Shown: in pieces, positions 13,208 through 17,605 of the stretch
Numbering within the stretch: the first letter of the stretch is position 1
How the letters are laid out: each line of letters starts with the position of its first letter
The notes under the pieces: model-generated
Database searches by the model: none
What the model was told of the DNA's origin: nothing
Seen by the model: the letters and a program-made list of their open reading frames with translations, nothing else
NCBI GenBank assembly: GCA_026416585.1
Contig: JAOAEV010000043.1
Location: 1 to 34,124 of the forward strand
Direction of reading: 5' to 3'
Source: Chlorobiota bacterium
GTDB lineage: Bacteria > Bacteroidota > Ignavibacteria > Kapaibacteriales > NICIL-2
DNA: 34,124 nucleotides
Translations under genes and position numbers: made by a program

Positions 13208-14731
13208 CTACTGCGGACGTCCGAAGAGACGCTGCCGCTCCTCCTCGCTGAGCATCTCGCCAATCGTAATACGCGTTGGATTCGACGGACGCTGACTCTG
13301 GCGCTGCTCCTGCTGCTTCGATGCATGCCCTGCCCGAGCATCACGTGGCGGACCAAAGAGTTCCTCTTCTGGCTCCACACGTGGTTCAACGATGAACGAC
13401 TCGTTTGTCGGGTCCACTTCGACAACTGTGACCGCGACAATGTCCCCCACTGCATACGGAATGCGCTTACCCTTGAGAACTGGCCGCATATGTGAGCGCG
13501 GCATGAATGCATCCACTTCACCACCAATGGTCAGTAGAACACCCGCACCCTTGACTTCTCGCACAATACCCGTCGTATGCAGTCCACGGGGATATTTCGT
13601 CACAAAACTGGGCCATGGATTTTCGGTCGTCTGGCGCAGGGACAGATCAATCTCTTCGCGATCGGGTTTGACCTCGATCACAACGACGTCAATTTGTTGT
13701 CCCTCTCGCAGAACTTCTGCCGGATCGCTAATGCGACGAGTCCACGAGAGTTCTCGTAACCGGAGCAACCCTTCGATTCCTGGCTCTAATTCGACGAATG
13801 AACCGAACGGTACTAACCGACGTACCACTCCTTGATAACGCTCTCCTGGTTTATAGCGCTCTGCTACCGCATGCCACGGCGATGATTCAAGCGCTTTCAT
13901 GCTGAGTGATATTTTATTGCTGGCTGGGTCTATCTCAATGATTTGTGCGCGAACGCGGTCACCAATATGGAACATCTCTGCCAGATGAGCTGGCGGACGG
14001 TGCGACACGCGGGTGATGTGTACCAAACCGTCGAATCCACCGATGTCCACAAAGAGTCCAAACTCTTTCACTGCAGTTATAGTACCTTCGACCACATTCC
14101 CGACGGCGATGCGGCTGTAAAACTCGTTGCGCAGGATATTCTGACGCGTAACGATGATCGAGATTCTGCCCGATTCATCTTTGGTGATTTCGGCAATGTG
14201 CACAGGAATATCTGTTCCGACTGCCGCTTGAAGCTCATCGTTCGTAGGCGATTTCTTCAAAAAGAACTGCGACGAGGGCAAAAACATCTTGACGCCTTCG
14301 TACAGGACTCGTAAGCCACCGCGAATCCGTTGTGCCACATGAACGGTGACCGTTTCGCCCTTCTCCATAATGTCGCGCAGGCGGGCGAGCAACTCATCAG
14401 TGACGACAACTGGCGCCGGTTTTTCTTCCGCTGGAGGCAGTTCGATTTTTTCGAATGGCTGGGGTTCCACTACCGGTTGAGTCTGAGCCGGAGTTGGAAC
14501 GGTTTGCTGCTCAGCAAGTGGTTGGTTGAGATTTGTCACATCCTCATGTACTGAGGCCTCGGACTGGGAATTTGCCGATGAAGACGGCAGCTCAGCCGCT
14601 GCAGCACTATCATCGGTTTGCGACGGCGCTGCATCAATCGTTGTGTTCTGTGTCTCATTGGCAGCAGATGCTGCATCTGGACGGAGTTCGTGTTCGCTCA
14701 TGGACGTTGTGGCGTTATGTGGTTGACTCAT
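13208..14731 (-). CDS. RNA-binding protein with four S1 domains (ribosomal protein S1-like)
   Basis: The 507-residue protein has a disordered, acidic Ala/Ser/Thr/Gln/Pro-rich N-terminus (1-110), four S1 domains at roughly 125-196, 208-279, 294-367 and 381-451, and a polar Gln/Arg-rich tail. Domain 2 (GTITAVKEFGLFVDIGGFDGLVHIT) and domain 3 (GVVRRLVPFGSFVELEPGIEGLL) are canonical; 1 and 4 are more divergent. True S1 in this group usually has five or six domains, so this may be a short S1 or a paralogue that binds mRNA on the ribosome. The ATG at 14731 has a GGGAG ribosome site that lies in the 3' arm of a hairpin (14732-14758), suggesting control at translation. The longer frame upstream overlaps the Nudix gene and is rejected. 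Confidence 0.85.
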   Translation of the reverse strand: MSQPHNATTSMSEHELRPDAASAANETQNTTIDAAPSQTDDSAAAAELPSSSANSQSEASVHEDVTNLNQPLAEQQTVPTPAQTQPVVEPQPFEKIELPPAEEKPAPVVVTDELLARLRDIMEKGETVTVHVAQRIRGGLRVLYEGVKMFLPSSQFFLKKSPTNDELQAAVGTDIPVHIAEITKDESGRISIIVTRQNILRNEFYSRIAVGNVVEGTITAVKEFGLFVDIGGFDGLVHITRVSHRPPAHLAEMFHIGDRVRAQIIEIDPASNKISLSMKALESSPWHAVAERYKPGERYQGVVRRLVPFGSFVELEPGIEGLLRLRELSWTRRISDPAEVLREGQQIDVVVIEVKPDREEIDLSLRQTTENPWPSFVTKYPRGLHTTGIVREVKGAGVLLTIGGEVDAFMPRSHMRPVLKGKRIPYAVGDIVAVTVVEVDPTNESFIVEPRVEPEEELFGPPRDARAGHASKQQEQRQSQRPSNPTRITIGEMLSEEERQRLFGRPQ

Positions 14732-14758
14732 CGCTCCCTGCCTATTAATTGGGGAGCG
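14732..14758 (-). promoter_or_regulatory. Hairpin enclosing the ribosome-binding site of the S1-domain gene
   Basis: In the mRNA the bases CGCTCCC and GGGAGCG pair perfectly over 7 bp around a 13-base AU-rich loop. The 3' arm contains the GGGAG Shine-Dalgarno-like sequence and directly abuts the AUG at 14731. It is a candidate on/off switch for translation, and S1 proteins are known to repress their own translation through leader structure in E. coli. A TATATTCG sequence (minus strand, 14771 to 14764) one mismatch from TAnnTTTG could be a promoter just upstream. Function is inferred. Confidence 0.5.
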
Positions 14759-14777
14759 GGATGCGAATATACAACGC

Positions 14778-15245
14778 TCATCGGATGCGGTAGAGTCGCG
14801 GCAACCAAGAATTATCGCTGTCGGAAAGAACGTAGTCAAAAACAATCGTTGCCTGCTGCTGTGCAAGGACAGGCAGGAAACCGATAGCAGCGGCACAATC
14901 GAACCAACGAAACTCTGCGTGTTCGCTCAAACAAGGAATAGCTTCGGATGAAACAACTGCACCGAAGACGACCGGCAGAACGACCGCATCCTCATGGCGG
15001 TCGAAGTACGTCCCGACGACGGGAAGCGACCACCATTGGAGTGCTTTGAGTCCTGTCTCTTCCACAAGTTCACGCTCGGCGGCGTCCAGTGCATGCTCAC
15101 CAGCACCAATACGACCGGTGATGCATTGCCACAGACCAGCATACTCTGCATCAGTGTCGGTACGCCGTAGGAGAAGGTGTTCCCACTGTTGGTCAGAAGG
15201 ACGCGCTACGTGGACTTGAACCAGCGTTGATACAACGCGTGCCAT
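14778..15245 (-). CDS. Nudix hydrolase (NudB-like pyrophosphohydrolase)
   Basis: The 155-residue protein has a complete Nudix box: GRIGAGEHALDAAE followed by RELVEETGL, residues 44-66. The N-terminus (ARVVSTLVQVHVARP) and the HEDAVVLPVVFGAVV and EHAEFRWFDCAAAIGFL segments resemble NudB, the dihydroneopterin triphosphate pyrophosphatase of folate synthesis, and related dNTP pyrophosphatases; the exact substrate is uncertain. The ATG at 15245 lies 40 bases inside the end of the RluB-like gene, a long overlap that implies coupled translation. A 46-base gap to the S1-domain gene follows. Confidence 0.87.
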   Translation of the reverse strand: MARVVSTLVQVHVARPSDQQWEHLLLRRTDTDAEYAGLWQCITGRIGAGEHALDAAERELVEETGLKALQWWSLPVVGTYFDRHEDAVVLPVVFGAVVSSEAIPCLSEHAEFRWFDCAAAIGFLPVLAQQQATIVFDYVLSDSDNSWLPRLYRIR

Positions 15246-16372
15246 GGCTCATCGGTAGCCAATTGCTCGATGGTTGCTGCAGGTACGGATTCAGGGAAAA
15301 TTTTCGTTAGTTCGACTTGCGAGAGTCTTCGCCAAGAACCTGGTGCAATGCCATCGTGCGTAATCGTTCCGATGCGATAGCGATCCATTGCGATTACTTC
15401 CAGGCCTGCTTCTTTGAAAATGCGGTAGAGGTCGTGCGGCGTGACTTTGGTAGCAACTACTGACAGCCATGCATAGCGCTTGGTTTTGCGTAGAAGCTCG
15501 ACACGCACCGACTCCTGATTGGCAGGATCGCGTTCTTGCAGCTCTTCTGCAATTTTTGTCAGGGTTCGCTTTGCGGGGTTTTTGTGAACCTTGATGTGGT
15601 ACTCTTTCTCCATCAAGTCGAAGAGGCTTTTGCCGGGGACACGTTGTTCTGCGTCATTGGTGACGATAACTAATCCACCGACGCTTTTTGACAGCGGACC
15701 AAGCGGAATGTACCAGCCGCGTTTTTTCATCAAGAAGTTGAACACATGGCGGCTGTTCGGCTCACGGCTACCAGCATAGTGACGCGGTTTATTGATAATG
15801 ATGTAAATGTTGCGCGGGGTATGGTGTAAAAGTAAGCCGTCCACGCGAACGGTATCGTAGAGCAATCGCACCGTATAGATCGGCTCACGAACGATTCGAT
15901 CATTGACCGTGACAACGTGTTCTTTGATCGCTTGTTTTGCGAGCTTGCGCGAGCAATACAGCAACCGCACAAGTGCACGCACAATCGTTGTCGGACGTGG
16001 CGTCAGGCGATTGCGGTCGGCTGGCTCAATAAATGGGATACGTCGGCGGAAGCGACTACGCCGGGGACGATCACGATCGGTACTGCGACCACCCCATCGA
16101 CGAGGTGTGCGTTCCCCACTGTATCGACTTCGCGACGGTTGCCACTCAGAAGATTGATGATAATCCCATGGGGGCTGTCGCCGTTGCTCTGTTGGCTCCG
16201 GCGGGAAAAACCGTCGTTGATCATCAGCCGCTGGATACGGCTCTTCCGGTTGGACTCGGAAAACCGATCGGATAATGCGGCGACGCGGCGGACGGTAGGA
16301 TTGCTGTTCGTCGGAGTCGTGATGCCCATTCGATGGCATTTCCGCGTCACTGTGCTCGTGTAAAGAATCCAT
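15206..16372 (-). CDS. RluB-family protein (S4 plus pseudouridine-synthase fold) lacking the catalytic aspartate
   Basis: The 388-residue protein has a disordered Arg/Pro-rich N-terminal extension (1-120), an S4 RNA-binding domain (about 124-185: LLYCSRKLAKQAI, VVTVNDRIV), and a RluB/E/F-type fold: NIYIIINKPRHYAGS, the motif II region GPLSKSVGGLVIVTND (225-240), EKEYHIKVHKN and a C-terminal PGSWRRLSQVEL. In active enzymes motif II reads GRLDxxTxGLLLLTND, with the Asp as nucleophile; here RLD is PLS, Ser228 in place of Asp. I checked the codons (CCG CTG TCA) and the frame is clean. It is therefore probably not a pseudouridine synthase in the usual sense but may still bind rRNA. The start at 16372 has a perfect GGAGGA ribosome site. 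Confidence 0.82.
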   Translation of the reverse strand: MDSLHEHSDAEMPSNGHHDSDEQQSYRPPRRRIIRSVFRVQPEEPYPAADDQRRFFPPEPTEQRRQPPWDYHQSSEWQPSRSRYSGERTPRRWGGRSTDRDRPRRSRFRRRIPFIEPADRNRLTPRPTTIVRALVRLLYCSRKLAKQAIKEHVVTVNDRIVREPIYTVRLLYDTVRVDGLLLHHTPRNIYIIINKPRHYAGSREPNSRHVFNFLMKKRGWYIPLGPLSKSVGGLVIVTNDAEQRVPGKSLFDLMEKEYHIKVHKNPAKRTLTKIAEELQERDPANQESVRVELLRKTKRYAWLSVVATKVTPHDLYRIFKEAGLEVIAMDRYRIGTITHDGIAPGSWRRLSQVELTKIFPESVPAATIEQLATDEPWHALYQRWFKST

Positions 16373-16642: not shown

Positions 16643-17605
16643 TTATTGTTGCGTTGTAACCTCTTCCCACACGCCCATACGAGCAAATTTCTCATGCCGT
16701 CGGCGCACCAATTCTTCTGGTGAAAGTGCGCGCAGTAGCGGTAGCTCTTCGAGCAACGTTTGTCGAAGCGTGCGGAACATCATCTCGGGATCGCGGTGTG
16801 CACCACCGATCGGCTCAGACACAACCCGATCAATAATACCATGACGCAGCAAATCATGTGCACAAAGTTGGAGCGCTTCAGCTGCTTGCTCTTTGTAGTC
16901 CCAACTGCGCCAAAGAATCGAGGAACACGACTCCGGCGCGATCACTGAATACCAGGCATTTTCGAGCATCAAAATTCGATCGCCGACACCGATGCCCAAT
17001 GCACCACCCGATGCTCCTTCGCCGATGATGACGACGATTATTGGAACGCGCAGGCTCGCCATCACAAACAAATTCCGTGCAATCGCTTCTGCTTGTCCAC
17101 GTTCTTCAGCTTCGATTCCTGGGAATGCACCCGGAGTGTCGAGGAACGTCACAACAGGACGGCCGAACTTTTCGGCCAGCTCGAACACACGCCGTGCCTT
17201 GCGATATCCTTCCGGATTGGGCATACCAAAGTTTCGGAGCAAATTTGTTTTTGTATCACGACCTTTTTGATGACCGACGACAATGACTTTGTGCTCGCCG
17301 ATACGTGCCAAGCCACTAACAATTGCCGGATCGTCCCGATAGCATCGGTCCCCGTGCAGCTCGATGAACTCGTCGAACGAGTGTGCCAGATAATCAAGCG
17401 TGTACGGACGTTCGGGATGCCGCGCCAGCTGTACGCGCTGCCACCGAGTCAGCTTGGAATAAATCTCCACGCGCAATTCCTCGATGCGTCGCTCCAAGTC
17501 AGCGATCTGCTCGTCGAGATCGAGCGTGCCCGCCAGTGACTTCATTTCAGCAACTTTCTTTTCCAGCTCGAGGATCGGTTTTTCGAAATCAAGAATGTAA
17601 CTCAT
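16643..17605 (-). CDS. accA: Acetyl-CoA carboxylase carboxyltransferase subunit alpha
   Basis: The 320-residue protein matches AccA along its full length: an N-terminal coiled segment ([17 protein letters not shown]), [85 protein letters not shown] and [14 protein letters not shown]. With AccD it transfers the carboxyl group from biotin to acetyl-CoA to form malonyl-CoA, the first step of fatty-acid synthesis. AccB, AccC and AccD are not in the window. The ATG at 17605 forms an ATGA overlap with the end of the glycosyltransferase fusion gene, making accA the last gene of a long envelope operon and possibly tying lipid supply to surface-sugar synthesis. Confidence 0.97.

Follow-up and report, generated by a model that had tools for sequence, protein, structure and literature searches.

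The gene at 15206..16372 on the minus strand of the window, the 34,124-nucleotide stretch of DNA analysed here, encodes a catalytically degenerate homologue of the RsuA-type pseudouridine synthases, 388 amino acids long, recognised from its open reading frame and a fold model. The protein descends from this enzyme family, has its fold and has lost catalytic residues; its core is under purifying selection and its gene holds a conserved place. The best explanation, with a probability of about 0.6, is that it is a pseudoenzyme, retained because it binds RNA and probably serving in ribosome assembly. Modification activity would then be absent, RNA would still be bound, and the target would likely be rRNA.

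The reading frame, with GGAGG just 5' of its ATG, contains GPLSKSVGG at residues 225–233, and the codons of Pro226, Leu227 and Ser228 are CCG CTG TCA, as the first-pass annotation had read them. The Arg-rich extension of about 120 residues described there is likewise present: residues 1–122 (16007..16372, minus strand), delimited by composition, include 26 Arg, 16 Pro, 13 Ser and only 4 Gly, at a pI of 10.8. The S4 RNA-binding domain, also proposed earlier, occupies residues 133–169 (15866..15976, minus strand) and is recognised by Pfam only, PF01479 passing narrowly at 23.0 bits against a cut-off of 22.8. Arg142 in this domain is the equivalent of RluB Arg17. The pseudouridine-synthase fold covers about residues 188–356 (15305..15811, minus strand; limits approximate), as placed by profile scores and the structural model.

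Family profiles detect the protein below their cut-offs. PF00849 gives 14.8 bits (cut-off 26.8) and TIGR00093 55.9 bits (cut-off 109.3); among the NCBIfam models RsuA scores best at 61.3 (cut-off 275), followed by RluF at 36.2 and RluB at 22.7 (cut-off 290), all far below and none reaching its cut-off. Three of the four other subfamily members scanned pass the PF00849 cut-off (L012, L038 and L040; not L014), and by NCBIfam equivalogs one of three other members leans to RluB and two lean to RluF. The initial label RluB-like is too narrow and unjustified, because RsuA scores first, other members lean to RluB or RluF and no cut-off is reached. The best solved relative by sequence is also RsuA (phmmer 2e-13). 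An AlphaFold2 model of the core, built with 19 relatives from titled records, reaches a pLDDT of 85.6 and a pTM of 0.79, and Foldseek and VIA group it with RluF, RsuA, RluB and RluE. VIA gives eight entries at Z 17.2–19.2 (rmsd 2.1–3.0 over 155–174 residues) and one further entry, RluB in 9cl9, with Z 13.3, all for the synthase domain only. Whole-length Foldseek matches to S4-bearing chains have a TM of about 0.5 with a large rmsd and do not confirm where the S4 domain sits. With the S4 domain recognised by Pfam and the synthase fold predicted by the model, the protein would class as RsuA-type.

RluB numbering was mapped onto the protein through RluB in the PDB and the canonical paralogue L004 of the same genome, and the alignment places Asp110 on D, Tyr140 on Y and Arg194 on R. 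Ser228 (15689..15691, minus strand) stands at the site of the catalytic Asp, RluB Asp110, in agreement with what had been claimed from the letters. The first reading that the surrounding motifs are kept holds in part. The motif I lysine, Lys195 (15788..15790, minus strand), is retained here and in 42/42 aligned subfamily rows; Tyr258 (15599..15601, minus strand) is retained at the site of the active-site RluB Tyr140; and the GxL..G frame of motif II persists. The base-flipping Arg108 is replaced by Pro226 (15695..15697, minus strand), and motif III is eroded at residues 309–316 (KVTPHDLY; 15425..15448, minus strand), reading KVTPHDLYR against EGKNREVRR in L004, with Arg194 become His313 and Arg197 become Tyr316. 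Since the base-flipping Arg and motif III have gone as well as the Asp, the catalytic site has been dismantled rather than changed at a single residue.

The loss of the Asp is not a sequencing error, because the five other aligned members of the genus also lack it: the column reads S/A/G/P/G/A in the six members, with the window protein first. The same variability makes it very unlikely that Ser228 is a new nucleophile. Sections of one report on RluB (PMC3919597) state that its Arg108Ala mutant has 0.6% activity, that mutation of the Asp abolishes activity in TruA, TruB, RluA and RsuA, and that motif III contacts the RNA major groove. Because two residues with known mutant effects (Arg108 and the Asp) are replaced, the window protein is, by strong inference from these analogies, inactive. 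That it is still a pseudouridine synthase, working through another residue or a shifted site, is quite improbable. In its favour, Tyr258 and the motif I lysine are kept, and five of 43 subfamily members do have the Asp, two of them (L038 and L048) also with the Arg108 and Arg197 equivalents, so that activity may persist in some members. In the window protein, however, none of the equivalents of the Asp, Arg108, Arg194 and Arg197 remains, and the column of Ser228 varies within the genus. Nor does motif II or III offer an Asp peculiar to the subfamily as a substitute: the well-conserved Asp columns D173, D178 and D240 also hold Asp among the 10 nearest canonical rows, in nine, seven and all 10 of them.

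The loss extends well beyond this protein. A search of 61 genomes (that of the window included), all of one order by kinship label, found matches in every genome, falling into two classes: strong ones, in 43 genomes, and weaker ones, which are canonical RsuA-type paralogues. The strong class is the subfamily treated here (L006–L048); it is absent from 17 genomes and represented in one more (G058) by a shortened copy, L180, which is counted separately from the 43 members. The subfamily is monophyletic, its 42 rows lying on one side of a branch with 100/100 support in a main tree that contrasts them with 29 canonical rows. This tree and alignment A1 omit L048, a fragment at a contig end, and the tree uses 15 of the 46 RluB-like paralogues, a label of our own for L004 and L051–L095. 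As judged by sequence, the subfamily represents a degenerate branch of a known enzyme family, spread across the lineage.

Outside the order the subfamily was not seen in the phylum sample searched. In a sample of 395 genomes of the phylum, 34 of them belonging to the order by kinship label and with at most six candidates scored per genome, the matches listed at 244 bits or more come from 19 genomes, all within the order, and from 0/361 genomes outside it. Among the matches listed, the next, at 188 bits, is a canonical paralogue from the genome of the window; the best from outside the order reaches 172 bits and reads GRLDKDTSG, a normal motif. The nearest titled records, found by a profile search of genome contigs, are Candidatus Kapabacteria KatS3mg039 and KatS3mg040, Candidatus Kapaibacterium SKYG14, and Chlorobiota bacterium SKW43 and J074, with 79–82% identity. 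The titled set (L126–L144) holds the best 19 of 51 loci, the other 32 being weaker matches from other groups, and it is biased because the contig search sees only members with EKEY[HR][VIF]KV. In family f3, 10/10 sampled genomes (G009, G018, G025, G032, G037, G042, G047, G051, G055 and G059) are without the subfamily gene and have one RsuA-type match each to the window protein.

The check that had been suggested, whether the loss is lineage-wide, shows that it is, though not uniformly: at the catalytic position, 32 of the 43 members carry a residue other than Asp or Glu. The column holds T in 11 members, E in six, L and D in five each, S, G and P in three each, A, R and N in two each and V in one, against Asp in 58 and Glu in two of 60 canonical rows (49 paralogues within the order and 11 sequences from other orders). 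By entropy it ranks 237 of 242 in the subfamily, among the most variable columns. At the Arg108 site, Arg is found in 22 members (C in 10, P in seven, V in two, A and G in one each) compared with 60/60 canonical rows. Arg is retained at the Arg194 site in 3/43 members, at the Arg197 site Arg occurs in 12 and Lys in one of the 43, and Tyr remains at the Tyr140 site in 38/43. More broadly, 47 columns are at least 90% fixed in the canonical rows; at 16 of them the residue persists in 80% or more of the 42 subfamily rows, at the other 31 it does not.

All 11 members with Asp or Glu keep Arg or Lys at the RluB Arg197 site, as do 2/32 of the others. This correlation gives a Fisher p of 1.4e-8 with relatedness ignored. 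Only three independent pairs exist within the subfamily and four on the whole tree, and Arg197 goes with the acidic residue in about two of the three, never the opposite way; the correlation is not significant by itself, because a sign test on three pairs cannot reach 0.05. It is suggestive, at the level of sequence, of the acid and its Arg partner having been lost together. On the tree, the Asp members L038 and L048 sit in one clade and L040, L042 and L043 in another, and the six Glu members fall within a larger clade that holds the latter three and the branch of the window protein. The inferred number of acid changes depends on tree and model: with L048 included there are seven losses if the acid is never regained, or six changes if regain is allowed, and the main tree without L048 gives four changes, three of them within the subfamily. 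The living sequences resemble stages, from GRLD with Arg197 (L038, L048), through GCLD or GCLE with Arg or Lys at the 197 site and then Gly or Asn with Arg197 (L041, L037), to neither residue, as in the window protein.

Along with these losses, parts of the protein are strongly conserved. Among five members of the genus, including the window protein, dN/dS of the core is 0.03–0.13 in the nine of 10 pairs that were computable, values that are rough because synonymous sites are near saturation (pS 0.57–0.78). The core is under purifying selection, and pN is higher in the tail than in the core. Two lysines are invariant in 42/42 subfamily rows of the alignment: Lys261 (15590..15592, minus strand), which is not typical of canonical relatives, and Lys320 (15413..15415, minus strand), where 42 of 60 canonical rows have Glu. 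W347 is invariant as well (42/42), and R299 and W302 occur in 39/42 and 38/42 rows. A decaying gene on its way out is barely credible against this background. It would account for the absence from 17/61 genomes and for the shortened copy in G058, but it sits badly with the selection figures, with a frame that contains no stop inside the match in 43/43 members (L048 being a contig-end fragment) and with positions invariant across nine families of the order. From the selection figures and the conserved frame, simple decay is unlikely. The order can nevertheless do without the gene, since it is missing from those 17 genomes and cut down in one more.

The RNA-binding side of the preferred reading draws on the S4 domain and the tail. 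The S4 domain is kept, with Asn157 invariant and Asp173 present in 40/42 subfamily rows. A long tail is characteristic of the subfamily, with a median length of 131 residues (range 0–380, 42 rows) against 17 (0–159) in 44 RluB-like paralogues; these lengths are rough, being counted from the first Met of each reading frame and set to zero where no Met is in reach. Pooled over the 42 rows, the tails contain 16.5% Gly and 16% Arg, and they are Arg/Gly-rich in many relatives. Against an RNA function, the pI of the core is hardly above that of the canonical paralogues (median 9.8 against 9.7). Arg17, with which the S4 domain of RluB anchors RNA, has its equivalent in the window protein but in only 28/42 rows (nine have Pro and five His), and because motif III is gone as well, RNA would need a different mode of binding. 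That the protein is instead a structural part of a multi-protein complex, its fold kept for protein contacts with no RNA function, is improbable. The newly conserved W302, K261 and K320 could be contacts, and low-complexity tails can mediate protein contacts; the retention of the S4 domain, with its invariant Asn157 and near-invariant Asp173, speaks against this.

The protein descends from an S4-domain synthase of the RsuA/RluB/RluE/RluF type, whose catalytic site (the Asp, the base-flipping Arg and motif III) was taken apart within the order. Retained were the fold and the S4 domain together with the motif I lysine and the active-site tyrosine; new invariant Lys residues were gained and a long Arg-rich tail carried along. 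In the pseudoenzyme explanation favoured here, the S4 domain, the remaining RNA groove and the tail would most likely bind a structured RNA, probably a stem-loop of pre-rRNA, and so help it to fold, or keep hold of it while the ribosome assembles, leaving it unmodified. A more specific course of events can be drawn up tentatively: the subfamily would be a ribosome assembly factor peculiar to the order, or a protein associated with the ribosome, derived from an rRNA pseudouridine synthase whose centre was dismantled stepwise and repeatedly.

By analogy, the protein could plausibly act in rRNA binding or assembly, and reports on E. coli enzymes bear on this in both directions. In sections of PMC10525438, E. 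coli without RsuA has some defects that are absent with catalytically inactive RsuA (D102N); at higher streptomycin, though, that mutant suffered a loss as well, which means that catalysis also counts in this case. According to parts of PMC11301382, TruB can rescue a co-culture defect even when inactive, and it works as a tRNA chaperone. RsuA and TruB thus perform some function without modification (PMC10525438; PMC11301382, in these same sections), but their wild types are active enzymes, and the window protein is naturally without catalytic residues. Portions of PMC11194073 report that inactive RlmB still aided growth of a strain without ten enzymes, and, against the analogy, that RluB, RluE and RluF gave no rescue of the assembly defect of E. 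coli without 10 modification enzymes.

Comparable cases are known in eukaryotes. Human RPUSD3, a mitochondrial protein of the RluA family, is likewise a synthase homologue without the catalytic Asp: excerpts of PMC12716993 describe the Asp as lost (to Gly) and report that in cells the protein shows no noticeable activity towards rRNA or tRNA. Human TRUB2 and PUS1, of other families, are synthase folds with a role in mitoribosome assembly apart from catalysis. TRUB2 has no detectable activity and is suggested for assembly in the same excerpts (PMC12716993), and PUS1 is bound with its pocket facing away from the rRNA in parts of PMC13294482. PUS1 differs from the window protein in being an active enzyme elsewhere. 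Among bacterial structures, PDB 9cl9 (WT 12C IM fraction, B-b3 with RluB bound) is, as we take it from its title, a ribosome assembly intermediate; the RluB in it is a fold relative of the window protein, but its site is intact. In the open-access library searched, nothing was found that joins Kapabacteria with pseudouridine, and among the titles listed none was on such a bacterial pseudoenzyme family.

Set against the RsuA/RluB/RluF/RluE family itself (TIGR00093; the E. coli 16S and 23S synthases), the window protein has in common the S4 domain and synthase fold, the motif I Lys, the Tyr140 equivalent and the GxL..G frame of motif II; RluE is the exception in the family, without an S4 domain. 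It differs by lacking the catalytic Asp, the base-flipping Arg and motif III, by its sub-cut-off scores and by its Arg-rich tail. The subfamily offers a natural experiment on an old question: are rRNA-modifying enzymes retained for the modification they make, or for the way the protein handles RNA? Much of one order appears to keep the protein and discard the chemistry. As apparent intermediate stages are alive in different families, activity, RNA binding and any assembly role could be compared among natural members. The results also caution against annotating genes of this subfamily as rRNA pseudouridine synthases.

The genomic place of the gene is stable. The neighbouring accA (16643..17605, minus strand), identified by locus comparison, lies upstream on the same strand in 18/18 loci that hold that side; 20 were examined, and two contigs end first. 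This conserved adjacency is one reason to consider that the protein regulates another RNA, either an mRNA such as that of accA or a tRNA, rather than acting on pre-rRNA, and the Arg-rich tails, by our reading of their composition, might suit broad RNA binding. Such a regulator is unlikely. Glycosyltransferase-type genes before accA also keep their position, so the adjacency may just be old gene order, and the 270-base gap between accA and the gene has no unusual fold (z -0.36). In the 18 genomes that lack (17) or shorten (one) the subfamily gene, accA was found in 16, and their flanks (at most about 1.5 kb) contain no remnant of the gene except in G058. Absence from G056 is uncertain, because the contig ends soon after accA. 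The G058 copy beside accA (L180:1524-2261) is open and shortened, without the motif III segment, and retains the S4 part and a C-terminal GSWQRLT.

On the other side of the gene, close downstream on the same strand, an S1-domain protein (PF00575, 147 bits) is encoded at 13208-14896 of the window. That no other annotated neighbour points to RNA, and that this one was seen only in the window and five near relatives (6/20 loci), counts against the favoured reading. A NUDIX-domain gene (57.9 bits; 14778-15245 of the window, same strand) overlaps with its start the end of the studied gene by 40 bases.

The genome of the window has five other PF00849 matches. L004 is RluB/RluF-like with GRLDRNTTG, L003 is RsuA-type with GRLDKASEG, and L005 is short, without an S4 domain and with GRLDLDSEG, which we read as RluE-like. 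Given these GRLD-bearing paralogues, the usual pseudouridine chemistry may be covered by L003, L004 and L005. A further idea, that the enzyme died as its target uridine vanished, was rejected for the 23S sites checked. The 23S rRNA around U2457 and U2604/U2605 was compared in 15 loci from 15 genomes (23S was found in 9/30 genomes by exact pattern and in 9/30 by DNA search); these sites lie outside L215, the 23S fragment from the genome of the window itself. U2457 is present in 13/13 covering genomes and U2605 in 14/14. U2604 is replaced only in the genus of the window, in 3/3 covering genomes, and this change cannot explain an order-wide loss, because G011, G015, G016 and G036 have both the subfamily and U2604.

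In the three 23S sequences of that genus (L210, L212 and L213), the E. coli A2590-U2604 pair is C-G (ACAGGTCGG and AGACCG); the A-U pair is kept in 11/11 other covering genomes. The target uridine of an RluF-type enzyme is thus absent from the genus, yet the window genome keeps L004, which among the E. coli types matches RluF best and may then have U2605 as its target. Among the RluB-like canonical paralogues, two members of genus g7 in family f5 (L081 and L090) have GRLE for GRLD, and L093 and L095 of the same genus keep the Asp, so that within the order this residue changed a second time, apparently more recently.
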